Assembly: GCA_002401685.1 (NCBI GenBank)
Contig: NVTU01000007.1
Coordinates: 23,130 to 87,129 of the forward strand
Direction of reading: 5' to 3'
From: Kordiimonadales bacterium
GTDB taxonomy: Bacteria > Pseudomonadota > Alphaproteobacteria > Sphingomonadales > Kordiimonadaceae
DNA: 64,000 nt
A program made the translations under genes and the position numbers. How positions within the stretch are numbered: position 1 is the stretch's first letter; the number at the start of each line of letters is the position of its first letter. The notes under the pieces were generated by a model. That model was given only the letters and a program-made list of their open reading frames with translations. It made no database searches and was not told the DNA's origin. Shown here piece by piece: positions 1-20,031 of this stretch.

Positions 1-951
1 GAGATGGCACTTGATCACGGTGTAAATTTCCTCGATACAGCCGAAATGTACTCTGTGCCTGCAAGCCCGGAGACATACGGCGCCACTGAGAAGATCATTG
101 GCAGTTGGTTTGAAAAAACCGGCAAGCGCAAAGATGTTGTGCTTGCCACAAAAATCGCAGGTCCTCTAGGCACTCTGGATCATATCCGACCTGAGCTGCA
201 GCGCGACGGTATCAACAATCTAGACCGTGCCGCGGTGATTGCCGCCTGTGACGCCAGCCTAAAGCGTTTGCAGACTGACTATATTGATCTCTACCAGATC
301 CACTGGCCCAGCCGACGCACCAACTTCTTTGGTGTTCTTGGCTATTTGCCCACCCCTGGTGAAAATCCGGTTCAGCTTGAAGAAACGCTTTCCGCGATGC
401 AGGAGTTGGTTGATGCGGGCAAGGTCCGCGCAATTGGCCTATCAAATGAGACCGCGTGGGGAGCTATGCACGCCCTCAAGCTTTCAGAAACATCAAATGT
501 GCCGCGCGTTGCAACAGTACAGAACGCGTATAATCTGCTTAACCGATCTTATGAAGTTGGTCTGGCAGAACTCGACGATAAAGAGAACTGCGGCTTACTG
601 GCATACTCACCGCTCGCGTCTGGCTTCCTTACCGGCAAATACTGTGGCGGTGCCCAACCAGCAGGTGCGCGCTTCACGCTCTTTAAAAACACGTTTAACC
701 GCTATATGACGCACAACGGTGTACAGGCGATGGAAGCATACGTGGCCCTAGCGCGTGAGCACGGCTGGGACCCCGCCCAGATGGCCAACACATTTGTAAA
801 CATGATGCCGTTTGTAACCTCCAACATCATCGGCGCGACCAAGCTGGACCAGCTTAAAACAGCGCTGGATACACACGACATGATGTTATCGTCGGAACTG
901 CTCGAAGGCATCGGCGCCATTGGCAATACCTATACAATGCCCTGCCCTTAA
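1..951 (+). CDS. NADP-dependent aldo/keto reductase, Tas-like (5' end outside window)
   Basis: The reading frame is open to the left edge, and the first visible residues already belong to the DTAEMY motif that lies about 40 residues into aldo/keto reductases, so the true start is upstream. The catalytic set is visible: Asp and Tyr in DTAEMY, Lys in LATKIAG and His in QIHWP. The text resembles E. coli Tas throughout, including SLKRLQTDYIDLYQ, NRSYEVGLAEL, LAYSPLASGFLTGKY and PAGARFTLF. Family members are cytosolic (beta/alpha)8 barrels that reduce aldehydes or ketones with NADPH; the physiological substrate of Tas-type enzymes is poorly known. The frame ends at TAA 949-951, followed by a hairpin with a T tract. 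Confidence 0.9.
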   Translation, partial: EMALDHGVNFLDTAEMYSVPASPETYGATEKIIGSWFEKTGKRKDVVLATKIAGPLGTLDHIRPELQRDGINNLDRAAVIAACDASLKRLQTDYIDLYQIHWPSRRTNFFGVLGYLPTPGENPVQLEETLSAMQELVDAGKVRAIGLSNETAWGAMHALKLSETSNVPRVATVQNAYNLLNRSYEVGLAELDDKENCGLLAYSPLASGFLTGKYCGGAQPAGARFTLFKNTFNRYMTHNGVQAMEAYVALAREHGWDPAQMANTFVNMMPFVTSNIIGATKLDQLKTALDTHDMMLSSELLEGIGAIGNTYTMPCP

Positions 952-981
952 AAAGGGTCTGCGCCGACCTGAAATTAAGCC

Positions 982-1014
982 CCCGCGCAGCACAGGCTGT
1001 TGCGGGATTTTCTT
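982..1014 (+). terminator. Intrinsic terminator after the aldo/keto reductase
   Basis: A GC-rich imperfect stem (982-991 with 996-1006) is followed by ATTTTCTTT. It lies between two convergent genes and touches the stop codon of the dienelactone hydrolase. Confidence 0.6.
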
Positions 1015-1808
1015 TAGGCTATGCGTTTTTTAAAGAAACCGAGCATTTTAGCATACGCCTGCTGCGTTGGATGATCCGGGTCCTCGCTGGCATCAATTGT
1101 CAGAACGGCGTGCGCGTCCTTCCTGATATTATGCTCCGCGTACAATGATGCATCAATATCAAAGCGGATAAAATTCTCACCAAATTCTCGTTCCATTGTC
1201 GTGAACCGGTCGGGTGGGCAAAACGGATCATTCTGAAACCGCAGTCCTAATATACACAAACCGTCGTCCCTGACACGCGCCTTGGCCTCTGCCAGTTCGC
1301 TTTCGGGGATACCAAGTGTGGCTGCCTTTTTTGCATTGCCGTGCCCGCCAGGGTGGCCGGGCTGCGACATAACCGGTGCTGTCATTGATTTTTCTACCAT
1401 CAGGGACAGCACAAACCGCCCAGTTAGGCACATACCAATAGCACCGATGGGGCGCTCCCCGTTCTCAGTAGAGATAAACCGGCAAAGCGCCCTCAACCAA
1501 TTGGTGATAGGGCTAGGCTTACGCCAGGCCAGAAAATTGAATTCCTTCTGCAGGCACAGCCGCAGCGCATTTTTGGCTACGGCGATCGGCGCTGCAATAT
1601 CTCCGAACAAGTGGGGCAAGTAAACAACAAAGCCATCACTTACAAGTTTCTCCGCAAGCGCCAGCGTGTGCACGGTCATGCCAGGAAGTTCCTGCATAAT
1701 CAGGACAGGGGGGCACCCCAAATCGCCCAGTCGGTATACAGGCTTTTCAATACCCTCGTCACAAAATGACGTTTTGGTAAACCCTTCAAGGGCCTGGATC
1801 TCTGTCAT
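1014..1808 (-). CDS. Dienelactone hydrolase family protein
   Basis: This 264-residue cytosolic alpha/beta hydrolase has no signal peptide. The Cys nucleophile elbow typical of dienelactone hydrolases is seen in IGMCLTGRF, with a plausible acid in FQNDPFCP and a His in KDAHAVLT, so the Cys-Asp-His triad is complete. Family members hydrolyse lactones or esters, the type enzyme acting on dienelactone in chloroaromatic degradation; the substrate here is unknown. It reads in the same direction as the upstream exported methyltransferase, 107 bases away. Its ribosome site GGAGGG lies in the 3' arm of a perfect hairpin that ends in T6 directly before the ATG, so its translation or transcription may be regulated there. 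Confidence 0.85.
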   Translation of the reverse strand: MTEIQALEGFTKTSFCDEGIEKPVYRLGDLGCPPVLIMQELPGMTVHTLALAEKLVSDGFVVYLPHLFGDIAAPIAVAKNALRLCLQKEFNFLAWRKPSPITNWLRALCRFISTENGERPIGAIGMCLTGRFVLSLMVEKSMTAPVMSQPGHPGGHGNAKKAATLGIPESELAEAKARVRDDGLCILGLRFQNDPFCPPDRFTTMEREFGENFIRFDIDASLYAEHNIRKDAHAVLTIDASEDPDHPTQQAYAKMLGFFKKRIA

Positions 1809-1813
1809 AAAAA

Positions 1814-1843
1814 ATGCCCTCCACCAAACATGCTGAAGGGCAT
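1814..1843 (-). promoter_or_regulatory. Hairpin holding the ribosome site of the dienelactone hydrolase gene
   Basis: On the minus strand the arms AUGCCCUUCA and UGGAGGGCAU pair over 10 bp with one G-U pair around a 10-base loop. The 3' arm contains the Shine-Dalgarno sequence GGAGGG. T6 and then the ATG follow at once. The element can be read as a translational lid, an attenuator or a terminator, and a near copy precedes the next gene upstream. Confidence 0.6.
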
Positions 1844-1915
1844 CATTGCGTAGCCAAACAATTTACACAAGAACGCTACGGATTCTTAGCGTCGACGCGC
1901 AGCCTTCCACCAAAG

Positions 1916-2680
1916 TTAGCCGACCGGCTTCATGTACAGGTGCGTGAAACGGTCACTTTCACCGATGGCTTTGTATTTTTTGCTGTTCGGGCCACTTAGC
2001 GTTGGCGGCAACGAGTAAACACCGCGCGGATGGTCTTTTGTATCTAACGGATTCCTGTTTACGTCACTGGTTTTTACAAGAACAAAACCAGCTTTTTCAG
2101 CCATTGCCCGGAAGTAGCTTTCCTTCACGTATCCGTCTTCAGAAACCGGATCTTGTTCGCCGCCAGCTTCATCACCTGCGTGATCCACAATGCCGAAGTA
2201 TCCACCTGGCTTAAGCATTTTAAACAGATCATCTACATGGTCCTGCGCAGGGCTGTCATAGATCAGGAAACCATGCACCCGGAATACAAACGCCATATCA
2301 ATGGTGCCGTAGATAATTTCGTCGCGGGCTTCATCTGGCCATGATCGGTTGAGCGGCACGGGATAATAGGAGCCGCCTTCGCTGCTTTCTATGAATGGCT
2401 CAATGATACGCCGATACCAGCCGCCCGGCCCGCCTGGATCAATTTCAACAATCTTCATGTCGGACTTAAGGCCCATAAAAGCCAGTGTTTCAGCAGGGTG
2501 GCGGTACTTATCACGGGCACGGTGCCGCGCAGGCCTGTCATCACTGGCAATTAGCTGCTCAAGTGAACGTGCATCACGGGCCGAATAATTGATCTCTGCC
2601 GGACCACGTGCATAAGAATAGGCGCCTACGCCCACAATCAAAACAGCCGCCGTCGCGGCAACTTTGGTAAACAGTTTCAT
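1916..2680 (-). CDS. Exported class I methyltransferase-like protein (paralogue 1)
   Basis: This 254-residue protein has a basic start and hydrophobic stretch at residues 1-25 (signal peptide or anchor). The remainder follows the layout of the COG4798-like predicted methyltransferases: a RHPAETLAFMGL lead-in, a motif I region IVEIDPGGPGGWYRRI, LKPGGYFGIVDHAG and a C-terminal ESDRFTHLYMKP. It is the most diverged of the four tandem paralogues; motif I is altered and SAM is not expected outside the cytoplasm, so a methyltransferase activity is doubtful. It starts straight after an SD-sequestering hairpin and lies 90 bases after paralogue 2, possibly on one transcript. Confidence 0.75.
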   Translation of the reverse strand: MKLFTKVAATAAVLIVGVGAYSYARGPAEINYSARDARSLEQLIASDDRPARHRARDKYRHPAETLAFMGLKSDMKIVEIDPGGPGGWYRRIIEPFIESSEGGSYYPVPLNRSWPDEARDEIIYGTIDMAFVFRVHGFLIYDSPAQDHVDDLFKMLKPGGYFGIVDHAGDEAGGEQDPVSEDGYVKESYFRAMAEKAGFVLVKTSDVNRNPLDTKDHPRGVYSLPPTLSGPNSKKYKAIGESDRFTHLYMKPVG

Positions 2681-2686
2681 AAAAAA

Positions 2687-2714
2687 TACCCTCCAACAAT
2701 ATTGCTGGAAGGTA
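2687..2714 (-). promoter_or_regulatory. Hairpin holding the ribosome site of methyltransferase paralogue 1
   Basis: On the minus strand UACCUUCCA pairs with UGGAGGGUA over 9 bp with one G-U pair, around a 10-base loop. The Shine-Dalgarno GGAGGG is inside the stem, T6 follows, then the ATG. An A tract precedes it, so a bidirectional terminator is the main alternative. Design and spacing match the element before the dienelactone hydrolase gene. Confidence 0.6.
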
Positions 2715-2770
2715 CATTTTTTTGCCTAATGCGGCGATTCACTTTAGCGTCATAACGCCTTGAAGCCGCT

Positions 2771-3541
2771 TTATTTTACAAACTTGAAAACAAAGCGGTC
2801 TGTCTTCCGTCGGATAGATGGATCGAACGGCGATTTTGTATGTGTATCCTCAGCGTTCACAAACATGTCACTGGTGCTTTCTAGCTTAAAGCCAGCGGCA
2901 AGAACCTGTGCTTTCAACAGCTCAGGGTCAATCCGGTGCAGCGAGTTACCAGCCTCGGTACCGCTACCTGTTGGAGCAACATGATCTATAACTACAAACG
3001 CGCCGCCTGGCTTCAATGACTTATAAAGTGAAGCAAGAATTGCAGGAACGTCTTCATTCTTGGTCCGCATTTTATGTTTGAAATAATAGTCATGGTACGC
3101 AAGCACCGACAGAATAACATCGACGCTGTTTTCAGCGATCTCAACTTCTTCGGAAACTCCGCGTATAAGAGTTACATTGCTCAGACGGTCTTTATAGCGC
3201 TTATCAATATCTTTCTTTACGAATTCCCAATAAACAGGGCCATTGTGGGCATAAACACGACCATCTTTACCAACAACGCCTGAGAGAATTTCGCTATAAT
3301 AGCCACCGCCCGAATTTACATCGAGAACAGTCATACCAGCGTGAATTCCAGCAAATGCCAGAACTTCTGCAGGGCGACGCAGCACATCGTCTTTCAAATC
3401 GTCAGCGGGTCTGCCATCCTGAGAAAGGGCCGCCAAAACCTGGTCTTCAGGTGCGTGGTGGCCTGCGTTCACAGGCGCGAATACGGCCGAAGCCAACAGC
3501 GTCGTAGCTGCAACTGCTTTAAGTAACGTGGATTTTTTCAT
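2771..3541 (-). CDS. Exported class I methyltransferase-like protein (paralogue 2)
   Basis: This 256-residue protein has a clear Sec signal peptide (MKKSTLLKAVAATTLLASAV, cut probably after VNA). The mature part begins near DQVLAALSQDGRPADDLKDD, then RRPAEVLAFAGI, the motif I region MTVLDVNSGGGYYSEIL, VDVILSVLAYHDYY and LKPGGAFVVIDHVAPTGSG. It ends KTDRFVFKFVK. It is closer to the paralogue at 17.7 kb than to its tandem neighbours, sharing the short DGRPADD opening and the absence of an insert. The family is annotated as SAM-dependent methyltransferases of unknown substrate. Its ribosome site is in GTGGGGATCCCCG just before the ATG. Confidence 0.8.
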   Translation of the reverse strand: MKKSTLLKAVAATTLLASAVFAPVNAGHHAPEDQVLAALSQDGRPADDLKDDVLRRPAEVLAFAGIHAGMTVLDVNSGGGYYSEILSGVVGKDGRVYAHNGPVYWEFVKKDIDKRYKDRLSNVTLIRGVSEEVEIAENSVDVILSVLAYHDYYFKHKMRTKNEDVPAILASLYKSLKPGGAFVVIDHVAPTGSGTEAGNSLHRIDPELLKAQVLAAGFKLESTSDMFVNAEDTHTKSPFDPSIRRKTDRFVFKFVK

Positions 3542-3706
3542 CGGGGATCCCCACTAATGATTGTCTAAAGTCTTAATTCAACCAGTCGGGACCTTACCTC
3601 GCATCCCCCCAAGCGCAAACATTTTTTCCTGTGCGGCTATACTTGCGTTTACCGACGGTGACGAAACGCAGCGTTTCTGGGACAAAACAGAGACCCAACA
3701 ACAACA

Positions 3707-3735
3707 AAGGCAGCAGAGCCATGCCCAACTGCCTT
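3707..3735 (-). terminator. Possible terminator after methyltransferase paralogue 3
   Basis: On the minus strand the stem AAGGCAG/CTGCCTT is followed by TTGTTGTTGTT, 20-odd bases after the stop codon of paralogue 3. The T tract is interrupted, so efficiency is uncertain. Confidence 0.45.
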
Positions 3736-3758
3736 CAAAGTATCATACCACTAATATG

Positions 3759-4658
3759 TTACGCAGGTTTGCGGAACTTCAATGTCATACGGTCGCTTTC
3801 ACCGATCGCAGCCATTTTGGCTTTCACAGCTTCATCTTTGTTTGCAGCACCACCAAGCGAAGGCGGCAGGCGCCATACAAAGTCACCCACAACAGGCTTA
3901 TCTTTAGGGTTGGCGTTAATTTCGCTGGAAGCAACAAACTCGAAACCAGCAGCTTTCATCGCTGCAACGAGCGGCGCTTCTTTGATGTAACCGTTAAAAC
4001 CCCGTGCCCAGTCATCATCACTATCAGCTGGTGCGCGGTGCTGTACAATGCCAACAATGCCGCCCGGCTTAAGCGCTGCGTATATGTCTTTCAATGCGTC
4101 AGTACGCGTGCCACCAGTTTCTTCATGCTTAGTCAAATGGTGCATAGCGCGGAACAAAAGGAATGCATCTGCTTTGCCCTTAAGGTCTTCTGGCAGCTCG
4201 CCGAAAAGAAACGCGCCGACTTCCGTTTTGCCTTCACCGCGCCACATGGTCGCGTTTTTAACGAAGCCTTCAGGCCACATGCGCGTACGTTCCATCCGCT
4301 CCGCATTGTCGCCAAAGTCAATCGTACGGTGTTTAATAGAATAATGAACGCCCATTAGGCCGCCCTTATCGCCGAGGTATGGCAGCAGAATATTGCTATA
4401 GTATCCACCTGGCAGAGTATCAATCACAGTCATGCCCGGCGCAATGCCCAGAAACTCAAGCGTTTCTTTAGGGTGACGGAATTCGTAACGTGCCTTTACT
4501 TCATCGGGCTGTGCCACCAGAATCTTCTCAAGTTTGGCACCATCAAATTTCATTTTCTCTTCGCCGTGGCGAATAAAAAGCTCTGTGCTGCTCGCAATTG
4601 TCGTAGCCGAGGCCGCCAAAAGCGCAACCGCAGCAACGGCTGTCAGTAATTTTCTCAT
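3759..4658 (-). CDS. Exported class I methyltransferase-like protein (paralogue 3)
   Basis: This 299-residue protein has a Sec signal peptide (MRKLLTAVAAVALLAASATTI). Family landmarks are YEFRHPKETLEFLGIAPGMTVIDTLPGGYYSNIL (given here only as landmarks at residues 59-92), FRAMHHLTKHEET, LKPGGIVGIVQHRAP, EINANPKDKP and a C-terminal ESDRMTLKFRKPA. It is closely related to the neighbouring paralogue 4, sharing the signal peptide, HGEEKMKFDGAKL-like opening and tail, so the pair looks like a recent tandem duplication. A normal ribosome site AGGGA precedes the ATG without a hairpin. Substrate and activity are unknown. Confidence 0.8.
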   Translation of the reverse strand: MRKLLTAVAAVALLAASATTIASSTELFIRHGEEKMKFDGAKLEKILVAQPDEVKARYEFRHPKETLEFLGIAPGMTVIDTLPGGYYSNILLPYLGDKGGLMGVHYSIKHRTIDFGDNAERMERTRMWPEGFVKNATMWRGEGKTEVGAFLFGELPEDLKGKADAFLLFRAMHHLTKHEETGGTRTDALKDIYAALKPGGIVGIVQHRAPADSDDDWARGFNGYIKEAPLVAAMKAAGFEFVASSEINANPKDKPVVGDFVWRLPPSLGGAANKDEAVKAKMAAIGESDRMTLKFRKPA

Positions 4659-4830
4659 CAGTATTCCCTAGACTGTTTCGATTTTAAGTTATTTTTTTAT
4701 ATATTTTGCATTCAGGCCGAACACTAAACGCAAGCGCTTACTGATGTAACTAGTTACGATCCAAAAATAAACGTAAGTTTAGAAAGATCACAGTATTATG
4801 TTATGGAGGGAAAGCTCGCTGCGGATACAG

Positions 4831-4864
4831 AAAAGACGGCAAAGCTCCCGCTCTGCCGTCTTTT
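4831..4864 (-). terminator. Strong intrinsic terminator after methyltransferase paralogue 4
   Basis: Perfect 11-bp stem AAAAGACGGCA/TGCCGTCTTTT with a 12-base loop. It is symmetrical with A and T tracts on both sides and lies directly after the stop of paralogue 4. Confidence 0.8.
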
Positions 4865-4887
4865 CCCTAGATTAAGCCATCAAGCCT

Positions 4888-5817
4888 TCATTGTGGCTTG
4901 CGGAACTTCAGCGTCATGCGGTCAGTCTCGCCGATTGCAGTCATTTTGGCGATCCGAGCCGCTTTTACGTCTTCGGCTTCATCGCGGCCGCCCTGCAATG
5001 CAGGTGGTAAACGCCATACAACTTCCGTGTCTGTTGGCTGGTCCTTAGGATTGGCGTTGATCTCGCTTGCTGCCAAAAACTCAAAGCCAGCCGCCTTCAT
5101 TGTTTCAATCACATAAGATTGCTTCATATAACCAGCATGGCCCACGGAAGCCGCTTCACCACGTTCTTCAGAACCACGGTGCTGTACAATACCAACAATG
5201 CCGCCAGGTTTAAGTGCCGTATACATATCTTTCAGGCCAGGCATCAAGAAATCACCTTTGTCCTCAAAGCGGTTCAGATGGTGTATTGCGCGCGGCAGCA
5301 AGAAAACATCAACGCTACCTTTCATGGCATCAGGAAACGCTCCAAGCGCCGTTGCGGTGACAACAGCACTACCTTCGCCCCGCCACTTCTGGCCATCCTC
5401 CGCCCACGTACCGGCCCATGTCTTGCGCTCTTCACGGAATTTCACGGCGCGTTCGCTATCACCCGCGACCCAAAAGTCCCACATGGCGATATTGTAATCT
5501 ACACCAATAACTGTGCCTTTTTCGCCGAGGTAGTTTATGAGTATTTTTGAATACCAACCGCCACCAGGAAGAACCTCAGCAACTGTCATGCCGGGCGTTA
5601 CGCCAAAGAACTCAAGCGTTTCTTTAGGGTTCCGGTACTGATAACGTGCTTTTACGGCATCATCCTGTGCCGCGAGAGCTTTGTCCATCATTGCACCGCT
5701 AAATTTCATCATTTTGCCTTCAGCGTGATGATCCATCGCCGCCGGGCCGTTTGCTACTGCTGCACCAGCAGATGCCATCAAAGCCGCTGCCGCCACGGCC
5801 GTTAATAAATTACGCAT
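4888..5817 (-). CDS. Exported class I methyltransferase-like protein (paralogue 4)
   Basis: This 309-residue protein has a Sec signal peptide (MRNLLTAVAAAALMASAGAA). Landmarks are RNPKETLEFFGVTPGMTV, the motif I region EVLPGGGWYSKIL, GSVDVFLLPRAIHHLNR, LKPGGIVGIVQHRGS, EINANPKDQP and ETDRMTLKFRKPQ. It is the longest paralogue and the first of the leftward run, ended by its own strong terminator, so it is probably transcribed alone. AAGGGA gives a normal ribosome site. The family is annotated as SAM-dependent methyltransferases; the export signal argues for a different or periplasmic role (inference). Confidence 0.8.
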   Translation of the reverse strand: MRNLLTAVAAAALMASAGAAVANGPAAMDHHAEGKMMKFSGAMMDKALAAQDDAVKARYQYRNPKETLEFFGVTPGMTVAEVLPGGGWYSKILINYLGEKGTVIGVDYNIAMWDFWVAGDSERAVKFREERKTWAGTWAEDGQKWRGEGSAVVTATALGAFPDAMKGSVDVFLLPRAIHHLNRFEDKGDFLMPGLKDMYTALKPGGIVGIVQHRGSEERGEAASVGHAGYMKQSYVIETMKAAGFEFLAASEINANPKDQPTDTEVVWRLPPALQGGRDEAEDVKAARIAKMTAIGETDRMTLKFRKPQ

Positions 5818-6268
5818 TTGGTTTCCCTTATTTAGGTTTTGTTTTTAGAAATCTGGCCGATCTTCCGCCTGCCAGAAACGTGAGTGTGTGTTTTTTCTTT
5901 CCCCAGCAAAGAACGAATACATACTATTCCCGCTGAACGTAGGCCCACATAAAGCCGAACGCTACTCCAGTGAGACAGAATTATCTCACAACCCTGTGAT
6001 GAAACGGCTTTTTGGTGGGATTAAACCAATCAAAAGCTCACCGCCAAGGCAGCTCGGCACTCGCCCAAAACGAAGGCAGCCTTCTCCGTGCTACGGGCGC
6101 AATACGCGCGACTGTCGCTTATGAGCCAGAGCACCGCCCCACCGGCATTGAGAACGCTGGCATTAAGAACGTGGGCTGTGAGAACGCCGGCCTTTGATCA
6201 ACGCGTTAACTCAAGCGCTTAGTTCAGCCGTCATGCCGCCTGCAATCATTAATCCAGAAATTCTTAGT
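5818..6268. other. Intergenic region with three 15-base tandem repeats
   Basis: About 450 bases without a supported gene. The left part should hold the promoter of methyltransferase paralogue 4. Positions 6144-6188 hold three imperfect copies of a 15-base unit of the form GGCATTGAGAACGCT. In one frame this would read as a pentapeptide-type repeat, but the frame has no ribosome site and looks spurious. Confidence 0.5.
6144..6188 (+). repeat. Tandem repeat, 3 x 15 bases
   Basis: Units at 6144-6158, 6159-6173 and 6174-6188 share the core GAGAACG or AAGAACG. No function is visible. Confidence 0.6.
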
Positions 6269-6745
6269 CTAAACGGGCTCACCGGCAGGGTCGAAAGCCT
6301 TCTTAAAGGTAAAGGCTTGAGGCCCCGGCCCGTGCTCCCGCAGGTAAGATAAGCGCTTACCGGCTTCTTCAATGGTAGGTTTGTGCCCTGCAGGTATCCA
6401 CCACAGCACCGATGTGCCCTCCCGCACGACTTGGAACCATTCCTTGCGCCGCGCGAGAAACTCGGTATGCGCGGATTTATAAACATATTCGAACAGGCTT
6501 TCGCGGTCGCGCCATACGCTCATATTAGGGATGGTTTTCTCATCAAACAGGGTGAAGCTCATCGCGTTGCCGTTATCATCCTGCATGCGCCAAATAAAGC
6601 CGTCAGATGCCTCTGCCAGTGCATTAATCCTGTCGAGCGCAGCCATAAAGTCTGCCATCTCAGGGCCATCAAGCGGGTACTCAGTTGTGGCGATGTTTAG
6701 CTGTGCCAATTGAAAGGCAGGGCCAGGCTGAATTCCGTGCGGCAT
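6269..6745 (-). CDS. DUF3291 domain protein
   Basis: This 158-residue protein opens QLAQLNIATTEYPLDGPEMADFMAALDRINALAE (landmark at residues 11-45) and continues with SDGFIWRMQDD, MSVWRDRESLFEYVYKSAHTEFLARR and VLWWIPAGHKPTIEEA. This is the DUF3291 pattern, an antibiotic-monooxygenase-like ferredoxin fold of unknown function. The ATG at 6743-6745 was chosen because AGGAGAG lies six bases before it; a TTG 13 codons upstream lacks such a site. No signal peptide, hence cytosolic. Confidence 0.85.
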   Translation of the reverse strand: MPHGIQPGPAFQLAQLNIATTEYPLDGPEMADFMAALDRINALAEASDGFIWRMQDDNGNAMSFTLFDEKTIPNMSVWRDRESLFEYVYKSAHTEFLARRKEWFQVVREGTSVLWWIPAGHKPTIEEAGKRLSYLREHGPGPQAFTFKKAFDPAGEPV

Positions 6746-6774
6746 AGGTCTCTCCTGTTCGGTAGGATAAAAGC

Positions 6775-6984
6775 CTACGGCCAATGCGAGTATTTCCGTA
6801 ACCAGATTTTCTTTAGATCAGCAGGATGAATTCTAAGCGCACGAAAAACTGCCCGCCAATTGGCCGGAATTATTGCAAAAACGAATAAAGTTAATGGCGC
6901 GGCAATCGGTACAACAATTAAATTACCGCTGCGAAACAATTCAATTTTCAGCGTGTGCTTTTTCCGCCGGCCCCACATCAACAA
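6775..6984 (-). CDS. Small hypothetical membrane protein (doubtful)
   Basis: This 69-codon frame has one strongly hydrophobic segment (residues 21-42) between basic flanks and ends 30 bases before the DUF3291 start. No family was recognised and no convincing ribosome site precedes the ATG, so it may be chance or a gene remnant. Confidence 0.2.
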   Translation of the reverse strand: MLMWGRRKKHTLKIELFRSGNLIVVPIAAPLTLFVFAIIPANWRAVFRALRIHPADLKKIWLRKYSHWP

Positions 6985-7295
6985 TAGTGCGCTTAATCCA
7001 GGTCAGTATATCTTTCTTGTCAGCGTTTTTTTGGGGGCACTATAATAAAAAGTGGCATATCGGGCACCACCACATCCCTGATGCCTACCATGCTCAGTAT
7101 ATACATAACTTGTCCGGCTTCCGCTCTGCAGCCCAAAGCATATTGGCCGCGACGGGCTCTGAGCATACATTTTCGTTGGCGTTACGCCCAGATGGCTGCT
7201 AGAAAACCGGCAATCACACAAGACTATCCGAAAGGTTAAGTCGACGGTGTTTTTTGTGCTCAGCGCACCGAAACCGAACAGATGAAAGCTCCTCT
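6985..7295. other. Intergenic region without a recognised feature
   Basis: About 310 bases between the divergently oriented DUF3291 and SemiSWEET genes. Promoters for one or both are expected. No RNA gene, repeat or supported frame was seen. Confidence 0.4.
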
Positions 7296-7574
7296 ATGCC
7301 TGACCTGCCCTATGTTGACTTACTTGGCTATGTCGCCGCCACCCTCACAACGCTGGCATTCGTACCGCAGGCGCTGCTTGTATGGCGAACCGACGATACC
7401 AAGGCAATATCGCTGGGCATGTACTGCTTAACGGTTACGGGCATTGGCATGTGGTTTATCTACGGCCTTGTTATTGACAGCGGACCCCTGATTGTTGCCA
7501 ATTTTATCACGATCTGCCTGTCCGGCAGCATCCTGGCTAAAAAGATCCAGCATGTGCGGCGTGGTGACGCATAG
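7296..7574 (+). CDS. SemiSWEET-family (PQ-loop/MtN3) transporter
   Basis: This 92-residue protein has three membrane segments (about residues 7-25, 38-56 and 63-82) and the PQ-loop signature in TLAFVPQALLVWRTDD. Length and layout match bacterial SemiSWEETs, which dimerise in the inner membrane and move sugars by facilitated diffusion. The ATG at 7296 gives the usual family N terminus. An earlier in-frame start would add 14 polar residues, and neither has a strong ribosome site. Confidence 0.85.
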   Translation: MPDLPYVDLLGYVAATLTTLAFVPQALLVWRTDDTKAISLGMYCLTVTGIGMWFIYGLVIDSGPLIVANFITICLSGSILAKKIQHVRRGDA

Positions 7575-7743
7575 CCTTTGAACTTATTGAAATGTTGAGG
7601 ACGGCCAACCACTTGCGTACTAACTAACCACTTGCTTACTAGCCAGCGCTTGACGACTAGAAGGAAATATTCTGCCCGAAAACAAGCAGGCCGGAATTTT
7701 CAGCTCGCTCTTCAAGCCGCCGAAAACGAGCGGAGTAAAGCCA

Positions 7744-8214
7744 ATGGACACGACTGACGGGCCAGCCAAGACAAAACCTGAACCTGTAGCGAATACCGCT
7801 GCGGCCCCAGCTTGCACAACCAGCTATTATAACGGCGCTTGTCCGATCTGCCGCAGCGAGATGATGCGCTACAAACGGCACGGCGAGAAAGCAGGTGCTG
7901 CGCTCAACTGGGTTGATATTTCCAAGCCAGAAAACGCCGACGCGCTGAAAGACTATGCCATCACTCAGGATATGGCTTACCGCCGTATTTATACCATCGG
8001 CGCGGACGGAAAACCCGCTGCGGGCGTCGACGGGTTAATAAAAATATGGACCGAAATTCCGCGCTGGCGCTGGTTAGCGACCGTCCTGAAGTGGCCTGTC
8101 ATACACCCAGTCACGGCGTGGCTGTATGAGCATGTCCTAGCCCGTGCTATTTACGACTGGAACCGCTACCGCATGCGTAGAACTGAGCAAAAACAAGCGG
8201 AAAAGCACCCTTGA
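7744..8214 (+). CDS. DCC family thiol-disulfide oxidoreductase (DUF393)
   Basis: This 156-residue protein has the family hallmark YNGACPICRSEM near residues 29-40, where the two cysteines form the redox CxxC. It continues LNWVDISKPENAD and GLIKIWTEIPRWRW and ends in a basic tail. Family members are small thioredoxin-like proteins of uncertain partner. GGAG precedes the ATG by 8 bases. It is followed by convergent DUF3667-like genes. Confidence 0.85.
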   Translation: MDTTDGPAKTKPEPVANTAAAPACTTSYYNGACPICRSEMMRYKRHGEKAGAALNWVDISKPENADALKDYAITQDMAYRRIYTIGADGKPAAGVDGLIKIWTEIPRWRWLATVLKWPVIHPVTAWLYEHVLARAIYDWNRYRMRRTEQKQAEKHP

Positions 8215-8238
8215 AGTTACCCAAAAGCGCGCCTGCAG

Positions 8239-9039
8239 TTACGCCGCTTTTGTCATAACCATATAGCCAATAACGCCCGCAACAATCAATATAATCACCA
8301 ATAACACAATTACCACCAACCAGAAGACGGAAAGCAACGTGCGCAGGAAGCTGCTGATCCCACTACGTCCCTGCAGGTTTTTATAGGCGAAGAAGAAGAA
8401 GATAAACGTCAGCCCCGTGGCAGCTGCCGAAAACGAATTTATAACCGTCACCATACGTGGGTCGGCGAGCAGAACCTGATAAGCAATATGTTGCGGCAGC
8501 GTCAGCCAAATCGTGCTGGAGACTGAGCAATAAGCCGTAAACACCAGCGCGCGGAAATACGGCATTTTACCGTACGCTGCCCATTTGAAAGCAAGCGCAT
8601 AAAGCGGCACAAAAATCAGAAACGAAACAAACGGGAACTCACCCAGCAAATTCAAGAAGGGCAGCATGAAGCTGTTCGCCTTCTCTGCGCTAGCTTGTGC
8701 CTCTTGCGCGGCAGCGAGTTTTTCTGGGGTATCAGCGTCCACGAATAGGCCAACCTGCTGGCTTTGCTGCATCGCCACCAGCATTTCGTCCATCGGGAAA
8801 AAATAATATAGAACAACCATAACAGCCGAAATCGTCAAAATCATGCTGACCGGGTTTGAAACGCGCGGGTCATGGGCATCCATATAGTCGCGGCAGGCGC
8901 GCCACGGTTGGAAAAGCACCATACGCGCGGTGTATAACACCCCGTGCTCGAAGGATAATCGTTCGCCCAAATTCTCTTTGATGAGCTGCTTGAAATTTTT
9001 CGGCTGCACGGCGGCTTCGCCGTTTTGCTCTTCAATCAT
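8239..9039 (-). CDS. DUF3667-like multi-spanning membrane protein, copy A
   Basis: This 266-residue inner membrane protein has a conserved cytosolic opening (QPKNFKQLIKENLGERLSFE), the GVLYTARMVLFQPWRACRDYM block and five hydrophobic segments (about 63-82, 130-150, 162-182, 196-218 and 235-260). The segment before the first helix resembles DUF3667 proteins, but the N-terminal zinc ribbon typical of that family is absent. Function unknown. Roughly four of five residues are shared with copy B, and the 5' flank is also duplicated, showing a recent segmental duplication. The stretch VDADTPEKLAAAQEAQ in the loop is a likely amphipathic helix. Confidence 0.7.
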   Translation of the reverse strand: MIEEQNGEAAVQPKNFKQLIKENLGERLSFEHGVLYTARMVLFQPWRACRDYMDAHDPRVSNPVSMILTISAVMVVLYYFFPMDEMLVAMQQSQQVGLFVDADTPEKLAAAQEAQASAEKANSFMLPFLNLLGEFPFVSFLIFVPLYALAFKWAAYGKMPYFRALVFTAYCSVSSTIWLTLPQHIAYQVLLADPRMVTVINSFSAAATGLTFIFFFFAYKNLQGRSGISSFLRTLLSVFWLVVIVLLVIILIVAGVIGYMVMTKAA

Positions 9040-9410
9040 AATTATCCCCAGAGATTTGAAACTAAACCAGAAACTAAACTATAGATAATTGTTAGGGTTC
9101 ATTGCTAAGGATTGCAAGCTTTACAAGGACTTAAACCCTAGCCGCCGGCACACCCAAACCGCACCTAAAAGCCGTTGGGTATTACCAAACTCGCATCCCC
9201 GCCGCCATGCTGACGCCAACGCCCAAACGTAACAGCACCCGGCCAGATACTGGGTAGGTAACCACCGGCCAGAGGCACGCCTGCCCCAGGATATGCACAA
9301 GATAGGCTTGGGATAGGCTTGGGATAGCCCTGGGACAGGCCCTGGGCGGCAGGCACGGGGTACAATTCCTTGCCTGCGCTCGTCTTTTCTTTGTGGTTTG
9401 GGCTCGCGGC
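9040..9410. other. Intergenic block with regulator remnant and short repeats (copy 1)
   Basis: This block upstream of copy A recurs at 10458-10800. It holds a conserved probable promoter or leader next to the gene (AAACTAAACTAT, ATAATTGTTAGGGTT). Around 9178-9215 an XRE gene remnant reads as YQTRIPAAML. Positions 9301-9345 carry an 11 to 12-base unit, GATAGGCTTGGG, repeated two to three times. No intact gene. Confidence 0.6.
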
Positions 9411-9639
9411 TAGTCAGCCGGCACGCCGCCCGTGAAAGTAAGGAACGTGGCGGCCACGCTCACCGCGACCACAACAAAAAACAGCGTACAGTAAATCAGG
9501 GCAAGTACGGTGCGTAGCAGGCTGCTGGCCACAGTGCGGTCCTGCAGGTTTTTTAAGCAAAGAAGGAAAATACGAACATCACCGCCAGAGAGATAACGGT
9601 AAGCGCATTCATGAAAGCCGCAAAAAAGGCCGAAGCGCC
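9411..9639 (-). pseudogene. Truncated 3' copy of DUF3667-like gene C
   Basis: About 230 bases align closely with the 3' end of copy C (10804-11040). A one to two base change at the TTTTTATAGGC site breaks the frame, and no start is present. It is the scar of the segmental duplication and abuts the stop codon of copy B. Confidence 0.8.
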
Positions 9640-9644
9640 CGCAG

Positions 9645-10445
9645 CTACGCGGCTTTTGTCACAACCATATAGCCAACAATTATTGCGGTAATTACCATAA
9701 GCACCAACAATACAATCACCAACAACCAGAAGGCGGAAAGTAATGTGCGCAGGAAGCTACTGACCCCACTGCGTCCTTGCAGGTTTTTATAGGCAAAAAA
9801 GAAGAAAGCCAATGTCAGCAACACGCCTGCGGCCGTAATCAAATTTATAACCGTTACCATAAGGGGGTCGCTGAGGAGAATTTGATACGTAATTTGTTGC
9901 GGCACCGTGAGCCAAATTACGCTAGAGACTGAGCAGTAGGACGTAAACACCAGTGCCCGAAAATACGGCATTTTACCGTATGCTGCCCATTTGAAAGCAA
10001 GCGCATAAAGCGGCACAAACATCAAAATACCAACAAACGGGAACTCACCCAGTAAATTAAAGAAGGGGCGCATGGCGCTGTTCATCTTCTCTGCATTAGC
10101 TACCGCTTCTTGCGCGGCGGCGAGTTTTTCTGGCGTATCAGCCTCTGCGATTACACCAGCGTGCTGGCTTTGCTGCATCGCCGCCAGCATTTCGTCCATC
10201 GGAAAAAAATAATACATAACAACCAGAACAGCCGAAACCGTCAAAATCATACTGATCGGATTTGAAACACGCGGGTCATGGGTATCCATATAATCGCGGC
10301 AGGCGCGCCACGGCTGAAACAGCACCATGCGCGCGGTGTATAATAGCCCCTTTTCAAAGGATAATCGTTCACCCAAATTATCTTTGATGAGCTGCTTGAA
10401 ATTTTTCGGCTGCACGGCGGCTTCGCCGTTTTGCTCTTCAATCAT
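9645..10445 (-). CDS. DUF3667-like multi-spanning membrane protein, copy B
   Basis: This 266-residue protein is the closest paralogue of copy A, with identical architecture: QPKNFKQLIKDNLGERLSFE, LYTARMVLFQPWRACRDYMD, five hydrophobic segments and a C-terminal VTKAA. The ATG at 10445 was chosen because it gives the same N terminus and length as copy A and follows GGGGATAATC. Differences from copy A cluster in the loop after helix 1 (residues 88-120) and in the last helices. Function unknown. Confidence 0.7.
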   Translation of the reverse strand: MIEEQNGEAAVQPKNFKQLIKDNLGERLSFEKGLLYTARMVLFQPWRACRDYMDTHDPRVSNPISMILTVSAVLVVMYYFFPMDEMLAAMQQSQHAGVIAEADTPEKLAAAQEAVANAEKMNSAMRPFFNLLGEFPFVGILMFVPLYALAFKWAAYGKMPYFRALVFTSYCSVSSVIWLTVPQQITYQILLSDPLMVTVINLITAAGVLLTLAFFFFAYKNLQGRSGVSSFLRTLLSAFWLLVIVLLVLMVITAIIVGYMVVTKAA

Positions 10446-10457
10446 GATTATCCCCAC

Positions 10458-10800
10458 ACTAGAAACTAAACTATCGATAATTGTTAGGGTTCCTTGCTAA
10501 GGATTGCAAGCTTTACAAGGGCTTAAACCCTAACGGCCGGCACAGCCGCATCCGCCAAGCCGCCCTAACCCGCGCCCTCAGTAGCCCCAAGCACGACCTA
10601 AAACCCGTTGGGTATTACCAAACTCGCATCCCTGCCACCATGCTGAACGCCAACGCCCAAGCGTAACAGGACCCGGCTATATACTGGGTAGGTAAACGCA
10701 GGCCAGAGGCACGCCTGACACAGGATAGGCTTGGGATAGGCTTGGGCGGCAGGCACGGGGTACAATCCCTTGCCTGCGCTCGTCTTTTCTCTGTCATGTG
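10458..10800. other. Intergenic block with regulator remnant and short repeats (copy 2)
   Basis: Second copy of the block at 9040-9410. An XRE remnant near 10611-10666 reads YYQTRIPATM before a stop, and GATAGGCTTGGG repeats lie near 10722-10750. The gene-proximal 60 bases are the most conserved and probably hold the copy B promoter. Confidence 0.6.
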
Positions 10801-10809
10801 GCCTCGCTG

Positions 10810-11610
10810 CTATCCAGCATGCCCCACGCCCGTGAAAGTGAGGAACGCGGCGGCCACGCTCACCGCGACCACAACAAAAAACAGCGTACAATAAATCAGC
10901 GCAAGCACGGTGCGTAACAGGCTGCTGGCCACAGTGCGGTCCTGCAGATTTTTATAGGCAAAGAAGAAAAATACGAACATCACCGCCAGTGAGATAACGG
11001 TAAGCGCATTCATGAAAGCCGCAAAAAAGGCCGAAGCGCCAAAAAACCAATAAGCAATATATTGCGGCAGGGTGAACCAAAGGCTGCTGGCGGCGGAGCA
11101 ATAGCCCACAAAAACCAGTGCCCGGAAGTACGGCATTTTTCCGAAAGCGGCCCATTTGAAAACCAGCGCAAAAAGCGGCACAGTTATCAGGAACGGAATG
11201 AACGGAAACTCACTGACCAAATTGTAAAAGGGCCCCAAGGCATTGTTGATCTGTTCCGCGTCGGCCTGGGATTTCTGAGCGGCAGCGAGCTTTTCAGGCG
11301 TGTCTGCTGCAGCAAAGGAAGAAGCATCCTGGCTTTGCTGCATGGCATCCGCCATATCGGTGGTGGGGGAAATATACGCCAAAATCACCAATATCGCCGA
11401 CAGCGCCAAAATCAGTTTTACCGGGCTTGCAACACGGGGATCATGGGCATCCAAATACCCACGGCACGCACGCCACGGCTGGAACATCACCATGCCCGCA
11501 GTATAGAGCACACCGCGCTTAAACGATAAATGTTCGCCAAAGCTTTCTAGAATCATCCGTTTGAAATTTTTGGGCTGAATAGCAGTCGTATCATGGTGCT
11601 TGTCAGGCAT
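10810..11610 (-). CDS. DUF3667-like multi-spanning membrane protein, copy C
   Basis: This 266-residue third paralogue is more diverged than A and B but keeps IQPKNFKRMILESFGEHLSF, the MVMFQPWRACRGYLDAHDPR block, GKMPYFRALVFVGY and the five hydrophobic segments. The second ATG (11608-11610) was chosen because GGAGG lies six bases upstream and the length then equals that of A and B. Its 3' 230 bases recur as a pseudogene at 9411-9639. Function unknown; an inner membrane location is inferred from hydrophobicity. Confidence 0.7.
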   Translation of the reverse strand: MPDKHHDTTAIQPKNFKRMILESFGEHLSFKRGVLYTAGMVMFQPWRACRGYLDAHDPRVASPVKLILALSAILVILAYISPTTDMADAMQQSQDASSFAAADTPEKLAAAQKSQADAEQINNALGPFYNLVSEFPFIPFLITVPLFALVFKWAAFGKMPYFRALVFVGYCSAASSLWFTLPQYIAYWFFGASAFFAAFMNALTVISLAVMFVFFFFAYKNLQDRTVASSLLRTVLALIYCTLFFVVVAVSVAAAFLTFTGVGHAG

Positions 11611-11616
11611 CGGCAT

Positions 11617-12048
11617 CCTCCGTCAAACGGCCGTTTATTACAGCGCACTCTTACGAACCTAAATCCTCGATTGCAACATTTTTCAGTGCCTACTTTTTAC
11701 GGTGCCGTACCGCCTGCAACGCCAGCCCCCGGCCGCCCCTTATAAGCGCGCCATTAACCATAAGCGCTTGCGCGTTGGCAGAGTTGGCCCTACCTTGGCG
11801 GGGCATCCGGCAAAATCCGGGTGTGGGGACCGGAAAGCCCCTTAATTATCGAAGGACGGTCGATTTTGTCGCGCACGTCCCACAGCTGATTTGTGCCTAT
11901 TACCCTTCGGGGTAATCGCCCGGACGGCTTGGGAACAGTGTTTCGGCATAATACCTCGCACCCGTTTTCCTTTGGTAGCGGGTCTTTCCGGCGTCCGAGC
12001 GTTAAGCGCCCGGCATCCCCTATTTTATTGCAATTTGGGGAACACACG
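11617..12048 (+). other. Long leader upstream of the XRE regulator with strong secondary structure
   Basis: About 430 bases without a supported gene. The right half (11799-11916) folds into nested and competing stems ending with a UUCG tetraloop hairpin. The whole stretch is GC-rich and full of short inverted repeats, which suits a structured RNA better than coding sequence. Confidence 0.4.
11799..11916 (+). ncRNA. Candidate structured RNA or leader element
   Basis: TGTGGG at 11822-11827 pairs with CCCACA at 11879-11884, and inside it GACCG (11828-11832) pairs with CGGTC (11857-11861). An alternative pairing joins GGGGC near 11799 with GCCCC near 11837. Directly downstream, ATTACCC-TTCG-GGGTAAT (11899-11916) is a 7-bp stem with a UUCG loop. 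Mutually exclusive pairings upstream of a regulator gene suggest a riboregulator or antisense RNA. A phage C4-type RNA was considered but could not be confirmed by eye. Confidence 0.35.
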
Positions 12049-17287: not shown

Positions 17288-17748
17288 CACGTTAAATTGG
17301 ACGTTTGGTGTACGCCTCTAACGGCGCCCACGCAAGCTGTTAGTGGGGTGGATTTTGTTCAGCCGCATCACCAGCCCGCTCCCCCACCCGACCACCCACG
17401 GGAGTATACTTATAGGGTGGTCGGGTGGGGGCGCGGGCTGGTGTTGCAACCATAAAGGAATTAGTGGTCGGGTGGGCCAAAGAAACTATCTTGGGCTGGT
17501 GACGCAGCTTACAAAAAGATCTCTTTCAAATTATCGTTACCCTTTGCCCGCATCTGCCTAACAGTTTGATTCAAATGCGTGCTGTAACACGCTGATTTAT
17601 CTGTATTTTACTGAAGTCTCGGCCGCCAAAAGCCTCAGGCACCTAAAGCTATACAACCAAAGTGGGCGTTGTTATAGTCGCGGCCTTGTTCCTAGTTTTA
17701 AGGGCCGCTCGGGGGCCAACGCACAGAAAACACTTTGGAGCCTATCTA
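17288..17748. other. Divergent intergenic region with a large inverted repeat
   Basis: About 460 bases between thiC and the fifth exported methyltransferase. It contains the thiC promoter, the 29-base inverted repeat at 17369-17443 and a broken third copy. No gene is supported. Confidence 0.6.
17369..17443. repeat. 29-base near-perfect inverted repeat with a broken third copy
   Basis: The arms 17369-17397 and 17415-17443 are inverted copies with one mismatch and a 17-base AT-rich spacer. They are G/C-strand biased (CACCAGCCCG on the left, CGGGCTGGTG on the right). A third copy of the right arm at 17464-17501 is split by about 16 unrelated bases. No T tract follows, so a simple terminator is unlikely. 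Confidence 0.75.
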
Positions 17749-18516
17749 ATGAAACAATCTATCCAACGCATCAGCCGGTCAGTGATTATCGGCGCAGCCT
17801 GCCTCGGCGTTAGCTTTACCGCTTTCGCAGACGGACATTTGGCGAAAGCCGTATCAAACGACGCCCGCCCTGCAGACGAGATTGCACGCGACGCTGGCCG
17901 CAAGCCTGCCGCCGTGCTCGGTTATTTGGGGTTAGAGACCGGCATGACCGTGTTCGAATACGGCGCATCTGGTGGGTATTATACCGCGATTATATCAGAC
18001 GCAGTGGGCGAAAAGGGCAAAGTACATGCGCAGATCGGCGAACGCTTTTGGCCACGTCTGAAAGATACAGTAGGCCCGCGCCACAAGGCACTCGGCAATG
18101 TTGATACTTATGTCGGCGCAATGGGCGACTTTAAAGGCACGGACAACAGCGTTGATATGATGATAATCTCGCTGATCTATCATCACCTGCATTTCAGCGA
18201 AGAAACGGGCGACGTAGCGCCGGGCTTTGCCAACGATATTTACAAAAGCGCGCTCCGCGTTCTGAAACCGGGCGCTGTGTTCGCGATCATTGAACACCAG
18301 GCCCCTGACGGCACGGCGCGTTCCGCCAGTGCAGCGAACCACCGCGCTGCGCTTGAGAATGCGATCACTGATCTTACAGCAGCCGGGTTTGAATATATCG
18401 GCAGTTCCGATTTACTGGCCAATGCTGATGATCCGCAAAACATTCCGTTCCGCGATTTGGCGTCAGGCCGCGATACAAGCCAGCGCTTTATTGCAAAATT
18501 CCGGAAGCCTGCTTAA
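17749..18516 (+). CDS. Exported class I methyltransferase-like protein (paralogue 5)
   Basis: This 255-residue protein has a Sec signal peptide (MKQSIQRISRSVIIGAACLG, cut probably after AFA). The mature part starts DGHLAKAVSNDARPADEIARD and continues KPAAVLGYLGLETGMTVFEYGASGGYY (landmarks at residues 48-75), MMIISLIYHHLHF, LKPGAVFAIIEHQAPDGT and RFIAKFRKPA. It resembles paralogue 2 of the array at 2-6 kb but is unlinked to it. The ATG at 17749 was chosen for the signal peptide and the GGAG site 9 bases upstream; a longer frame adds 29 atypical residues. Substrate unknown. Confidence 0.8.
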   Translation: MKQSIQRISRSVIIGAACLGVSFTAFADGHLAKAVSNDARPADEIARDAGRKPAAVLGYLGLETGMTVFEYGASGGYYTAIISDAVGEKGKVHAQIGERFWPRLKDTVGPRHKALGNVDTYVGAMGDFKGTDNSVDMMIISLIYHHLHFSEETGDVAPGFANDIYKSALRVLKPGAVFAIIEHQAPDGTARSASAANHRAALENAITDLTAAGFEYIGSSDLLANADDPQNIPFRDLASGRDTSQRFIAKFRKPA

Positions 18517-19927: not shown

Positions 19928-19951
19928 TCGTCAAAGCCACTTCATAAAAAA

Positions 19952-19979
19952 AACCGTCCAGTACGAATACTGGACGGTT
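19952..19979 (-). terminator. Intrinsic terminator of rpsD
   Basis: Perfect stem ACCGTCCAGTA/TACTGGACGGT with a short loop, followed on the minus strand by T8, about 50 bases after the rpsD stop. Confidence 0.9.
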
Positions 19980-20031
19980 CTTATATTGTTTGCAATGCTC
20001 CAATTCCTGCATAAGGAATTGTGTGCAGCTA

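Follow-up and report, generated by a model that had tools for sequence, protein, structure and literature searches.

Attenuator-type terminators and hairpins that bury a Shine-Dalgarno (SD) sequence are both textbook elements of bacterial gene control. At the frd terminator of Escherichia coli, which is the ampC attenuator, an intrinsic terminator attenuates the gene that follows. Termination and SD sequestration can also act on the same gene, as in the tlrB (yxjB) leader of Bacillus subtilis, where together they keep expression very low and where a leader peptide and a drug signal are involved (PMC6851288). Riboswitch expression platforms, e.g. preQ1, sequester the SD or form a terminator (PMC11625349). 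Here, we describe two hairpins located in a 64,000-nucleotide stretch of the genome of a marine Kordiimonadales bacterium of the genus Kordiimonas (contig NVTU01000007.1, positions 23,130 to 87,129, hereafter the window), each of which lies directly before the start codon of a gene. Hairpin 1 separates two exported methyltransferase-like genes, MT2 and MT1, and hairpin 2 separates MT1 from DLH, a gene for a dienelactone hydrolase family protein. We propose, with a probability of roughly 0.6, that the two hairpins are the intrinsic terminators of MT2 and MT1 and that their 3' arms double as the SD of MT1 and DLH, respectively. This proposal is based on anatomy, conservation and covariation, from which we infer termination, use of the SD, and low or conditional expression as the purpose of the arrangement.

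Two near-identical hairpins directly precede MT1 and DLH

The DLH leader reads 5'-GATGCCCTTCAGCATGTTTGGTGGAGGGCATTTTTT-ATG and the MT1 leader 5'-GTACCTTCCAGCAATATTGTTGGAGGGTATTTTTT-ATG, and the 37-nt units of the two leaders are identical at 29/37 positions. Folding predicts an energy of -20.6 kcal/mol for the DLH hairpin and -20.7 kcal/mol for the MT1 hairpin, with shuffle z-scores of -4.3 and -5.0, respectively; overall, the pair falls at about -19 to -21 kcal/mol. Both hairpins display the features of an intrinsic terminator, that is, a stable G+C-rich stem with a T tract directly after it. Both also display the anatomy of a lid over the ribosome site, with the putative SD inside the stem (Table 1); across the copies it lies 7-8 nt before the ATG and reads GGAGGG, except for GGAAGG in the MT1 copy of G019. 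A preliminary description of this DNA had reported that both genes start directly after a near-identical hairpin with GGAGGG in its 3' arm, followed by T6 and ATG; we find this arrangement for both leaders, on the minus strand and at the place described. The stems of 10 and 9 bp with 10-base loops given there need revision, as the predicted stems are longer (11+2 and 13 bp) and the loops shorter (4 nt).

The start codons of MT1 and DLH look right from the sequence. The MT1 ATG is directly followed by a signal peptide and has no in-frame start upstream, and the starts of both genes coincide with those in relatives.

To place these elements against their genomic background, we scanned about 40% of this genome (1.07 Mb), comprising 26,246 start codons of open reading frames (ORFs) of at least 60 amino acids, for start codons preceded by a tract of T5 or longer and, before the tract, by a hairpin with an energy of -10 kcal/mol or lower. 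This pattern was found 39 times, and the MT1 and DLH elements rank 1 and 2 by hairpin energy. Two more strong candidates (L293 and L310) turned out on inspection to be ordinary terminators, with the real genes starting further downstream. In a relative with a complete genome (G012, 800 kb scanned), the sole genuine case is the orthologous MT1 hairpin. Because of these rankings, the false starts at L293 and L310 and the single genuine case in G012, the pairing of the two elements cannot be put down to a genome rich in hairpins, and the earlier view that two such elements in a row are unlikely by chance holds: they are the top two of 26,246 candidate starts.

The exact sequence pattern occurs only twice in the genome, and a covariance model gives no further close copies there except terminators; a dispersed repeat was therefore rejected. 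The same model also matches a third site in the window (19943-19982, minus strand), where a strong hairpin, a long T tract and an ATG follow an rpsD-like gene. This site is an ordinary terminator and not the same design, since its ATG opens a 4-amino-acid frame only and the next gene starts downstream.

The hairpins are conserved among relatives that keep the gene arrangement

Both hairpins are present in one Kordiimonas relative (G019), and the MT1 hairpin, likewise between MT2 and MT1, in two others (G012 and G016). Loss of the stems in close relatives, which the preliminary description had named as a refuting result, was not seen: the stem is kept in all four genomes keeping the gene arrangement (these three and the source genome, G000). 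MT1 orthologues in other gene arrangements do not have the hairpin. In the MT1 tree, the carriers fall in one clade (support 0.97), together with a genome in which MT1 sits elsewhere without the hairpin (G027).

Base pairs were counted in a hand-made structural alignment of the six hairpin copies; the MAFFT alignments A1 and A2 shift G012 and G016 by one base, which leaves the covariance model R1 imperfect. Pairing holds in 76/78 cells of the structural alignment; sliding the 3' partners lowers this to 33-41 of 74-78. Four columns (4, 11, 13 and 14) show both-sided changes relative to the commonest pair, including three that vary in this way within the MT1 set. More specifically, the MT1 inner stem of G012 and G016 has changed on both sides from AU to UG, from CG to UA and from AU to CG. 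The outer stem, in which the SD lies, is nearly constant. Compensatory changes had been suggested as a check, and changes on both sides of the stem are present; these sequence comparisons support the conclusion that the hairpins have been kept by evolution.

A probable terminator that may double as a ribosome site

An ordinary intrinsic terminator follows MT2 in seven relatives (G005, G018, G014, G015, G017, G008 and G002), with its T tract beginning 38-97 nt from the MT2 stop codon. By the same measure, the hairpin T tract lies 72-87 nt from the MT2 stop in the carriers G000, G019 and G016, in which the hairpin is the sole terminator between MT2 and MT1. In G017, the terminator is followed by about 150 nt and then by MT1 with its own separate SD, an order that may be ancestral. 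In the simplest history, MT1 would have come to lie directly behind the MT2 terminator, whose 3' arm would now serve as the ribosome site of MT1. Because MT1 has no terminator after it in most relatives, hairpin 2 may, judging from the similarity of the two units, be a copy of hairpin 1.

The distance to the upstream gene is also consistent with termination. Work in E. coli shows that a terminating ribosome represses a terminator lying within 30 bp of the stop codon and that terminators further away reach full efficiency (PMC4824070). The hairpins described here begin about 39-71 nt past the upstream stop codon and fall beyond that range.

If the hairpins work in this way, most transcripts would end in the T6 tract, and those reading through would include MT1 or DLH, whose SD would be locked into a very stable stem. 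The output of both genes would then be low, stepwise decreasing, or obtained only once something opens the hairpin. Of the three options offered in the preliminary description, a terminator with the ATG placed after its T tract fits best and a translational lid would be the other face of the same hairpin, while an RNA thermometer is disfavoured (see below).

Several points weigh against the proposal. The T tracts are short (T5-T6), and a stem of -17 to -20 kcal/mol is expected to silence translation almost fully, which would make the downstream genes hard to express without a helper; MT1 and DLH nonetheless look intact. Furthermore, most relatives lack a terminator after MT1, so hairpin 2 was not simply inherited as the terminator of that gene, and the covariation comes from six sequences only, in effect about three independent lineages.

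The same design is found at other loci

The design is not unique to this locus: Kordiimonas has it at two further loci, and scattered cases are found in other Alphaproteobacteria. It stands before an M19 dipeptidase gene in G006 (L155 1501-1540) and, with the stem kept, between genes for ALG14-like and ALG13-like glycosyltransferase subunits in G002 and G018 (L170 and L159; model match on the minus strand, genes named by eye). These loci were found with a model favouring GGAGGG and give no measure of how frequent an SD is in such stems. In G002 and G018, the word GGTAGCGTKCTT ahead of the ALG13-like gene raised the idea of ops/JUMPstart-RfaH control. This candidate was rejected: the word is coding (...HGSVL*), and most genomes have only one gene with a NusG domain, which speaks against an RfaH/ops-controlled leader.

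To extend the comparison, 385 alphaproteobacterial genomes were surveyed for the SD-type pattern CCTCC...GGAGG-T5-ATG and for a GGCGG control, and 30 matches of each were inspected. Real genes are opened by 3/30 of the SD-type matches, namely MraY, an AhpC/TSA peroxiredoxin after a DoxX-like gene (L232 1501-1534, outside Kordiimonas) and a membrane protein after a PadR-like regulator (L251 1501-1538, likewise outside), the neighbours being named by eye. Among the controls, 0/30 clearly open a real gene; one match opens a phage portal frame that has a better start downstream. The excess of the SD type over the control (3/30 vs 0/30) is suggestive, not significant.

Alternative explanations

We considered whether the hairpins could instead be regulated attenuators. 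In such a switch, an RNA-binding protein, a small molecule or translation of a leader peptide would open the hairpin, turning on MT1 and DLH together and lifting both termination and SD burial in one step. Two near-identical copies ahead of consecutive genes and a lid conserved across the clade would suit such a switch, which we nevertheless consider doubtful. All MT1 and DLH copies have an ATG at the base of the 5' arm that gives short overlapping frames (window 1806-1848 and 2678-2720, minus strand), and one such leader frame, MMPFSMFGGGHFL*, ends in ATGA at the DLH start; however, the leader frames vary in frame, length and sequence and are without a good SD. In both DLH copies (G000 and G019), the 5' arm can instead pair with the codons 'CTTGAAGGG' (window 1775-1844, minus strand), which would expose the SD, but this alternative is seen in two related sequences only, which cannot prove pairing. 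The predicted cost of exposing the SD is 8-10 kcal/mol for DLH and 16-19 kcal/mol for MT1, for which there is no alternative stem. Comparison of the spacers with those of relatives revealed no conserved structure or antiterminator, no mutually exclusive antiterminator was found for MT1, and the ops/RfaH idea failed as described above. An Rfam search returned no family at the hairpins and a single weak chance match elsewhere in positions 1-12000; a riboswitch or other known cis-regulatory RNA was accordingly rejected, as neither hairpin matches a described aptamer or family. Neither a signal nor an aptamer nor a conserved leader peptide was found at either hairpin.

Alternatively, transcription may pass through and the hairpin may act as a translational lid only, just lowering the translation of MT1 and DLH. 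The SD and its spacing are kept in 5/6 copies and the T tract is short, as would be expected of a lid, yet a tract of T5-T6 is present in all six copies and ordinary MT2 terminators stand at the same place in relatives. In the MT1 copy of G019, the stem is moreover kept at the expense of the SD, because a pair is strengthened (U-G to U-A) and pairing is retained while the SD is weakened to GGAAGG. Taken together, these features make a lid alone improbable.

It is even harder to regard the arrangement as a coincidence, with ordinary terminators abutting the next ATG by accident, an accidental SD-like arm, and downstream genes that are transcribed from elsewhere or silent. Most hairpin-T5-ATG matches inspected in the 385-genome survey are indeed ordinary gene-end terminators with an accidental ATG. 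At the present locus, however, the ATGs open real conserved genes in four genomes and leave no room for another ribosome site, and the element occurs in two tandem copies with long-term conservation. Finally, an RNA thermometer is hardly credible even though an SD paired within a hairpin is the usual thermometer anatomy, since the SD is predicted not to open within the physiological temperature range and to stay paired beyond 65 °C; its predicted unpaired probability does not exceed about 0.001 at 45 °C or 0.02 at 75 °C.

Genes of the locus

The minus strand carries the genes MT4 - MT3 - MT2 - MT1 - DLH, in this order, with an aldo/keto reductase gene convergent at the end. MT1-MT4 are four tandem exported methyltransferase-like genes (window 1916-5817, minus strand), among which Pfam recognises MT2 only, and a further relative is located at about 17662-18516 on the plus strand. 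Relatives of MT1 are present in 20/20 Kordiimonas genomes searched.

Table 1. Positions in the window of the genes, spacers and hairpin elements around MT1 and DLH, in the order of transcription.
Feature	Position	Strand	Basis
MT2, exported class I SAM-dependent methyltransferase (Methyltransf_31/11), gene upstream of hairpin 1	2771..3541	-	ORF, Pfam
Spacer, 55 nt, MT2 stop to hairpin 1; holds a further weak stem, not conserved	2716..2770	-	Sequence, fold, comparison with G019
Hairpin 1 (MT1 leader), 13 bp, 4-nt loop, terminator-like	2686..2715	-	Fold, alignment
GGAGGG, putative SD of MT1 in the 3' arm of hairpin 1, 8 nt before ATG	2689..2694	-	Sequence
T6 tract immediately upstream of the MT1 ATG	2681..2686	-	Sequence
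MT1 start codon	2678-2680	-	
MT1, exported methyltransferase-like protein, related to MT2-MT4, without Pfam hit	1916..2680	-	ORF, Pfam, homologues
Spacer, 71 nt, MT1 stop to hairpin 2	1845..1915	-	Sequence
Hairpin 2 (DLH leader), 11 bp + 2 bp beyond a mismatch, 4-nt loop, terminator-like	1813..1844	-	Fold, alignment
GGAGGG, putative SD of DLH in the 3' arm of hairpin 2, 8 nt before ATG	1817..1822	-	Sequence
T6 tract immediately upstream of the DLH ATG	1809..1814	-	Sequence
DLH start codon	1806-1808	-	
DLH, dienelactone hydrolase family protein	1014..1808	-	ORF, Pfam PF01738

Discussion

If the proposed reading is true, a single short element performs two jobs that are usually divided, ending one transcript and limiting the translation of the next gene. 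Such an element would allow tandem genes to be given unequal output in a compact form and would explain why a gene sits directly on a terminator. Terminator finders and start-site finders could, in that case, both be right at the same spot. More tentatively, and with more doubt than confidence, a terminator and a ribosome site in one hairpin may constitute a recurring, so far unnamed form of gene-pair wiring in Alphaproteobacteria, whereby one event frees both transcription and translation and one member of the pair is off or made in a small, constant proportion to its neighbour. At the present locus, such wiring would be placed in series on two genes.

In a limited literature search, we found no description of one intergenic hairpin doing both jobs directly before an ATG. 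The closest systems each share part of the arrangement. As in the E. coli frd/ampC case, the signal at the 3' end of the upstream gene would limit transcription of the downstream gene; to our knowledge, the ampC SD is not inside the terminator arm and the ampC start codon is set apart from the T tract, whereas at the hairpins described here the putative SD lies in the 3' arm and the ATG touches the T tract. The hairpins resemble riboswitch platforms in placing SD burial or a terminator just ahead of a gene, and differ from them in having no aptamer and no Rfam match. With the tlrB leader they would share the combination of termination and SD burial on one gene, but a single intergenic hairpin would do both jobs here, and no inducer is known. 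The arrangement is best described as an unusual form of known attenuator-type gene control.
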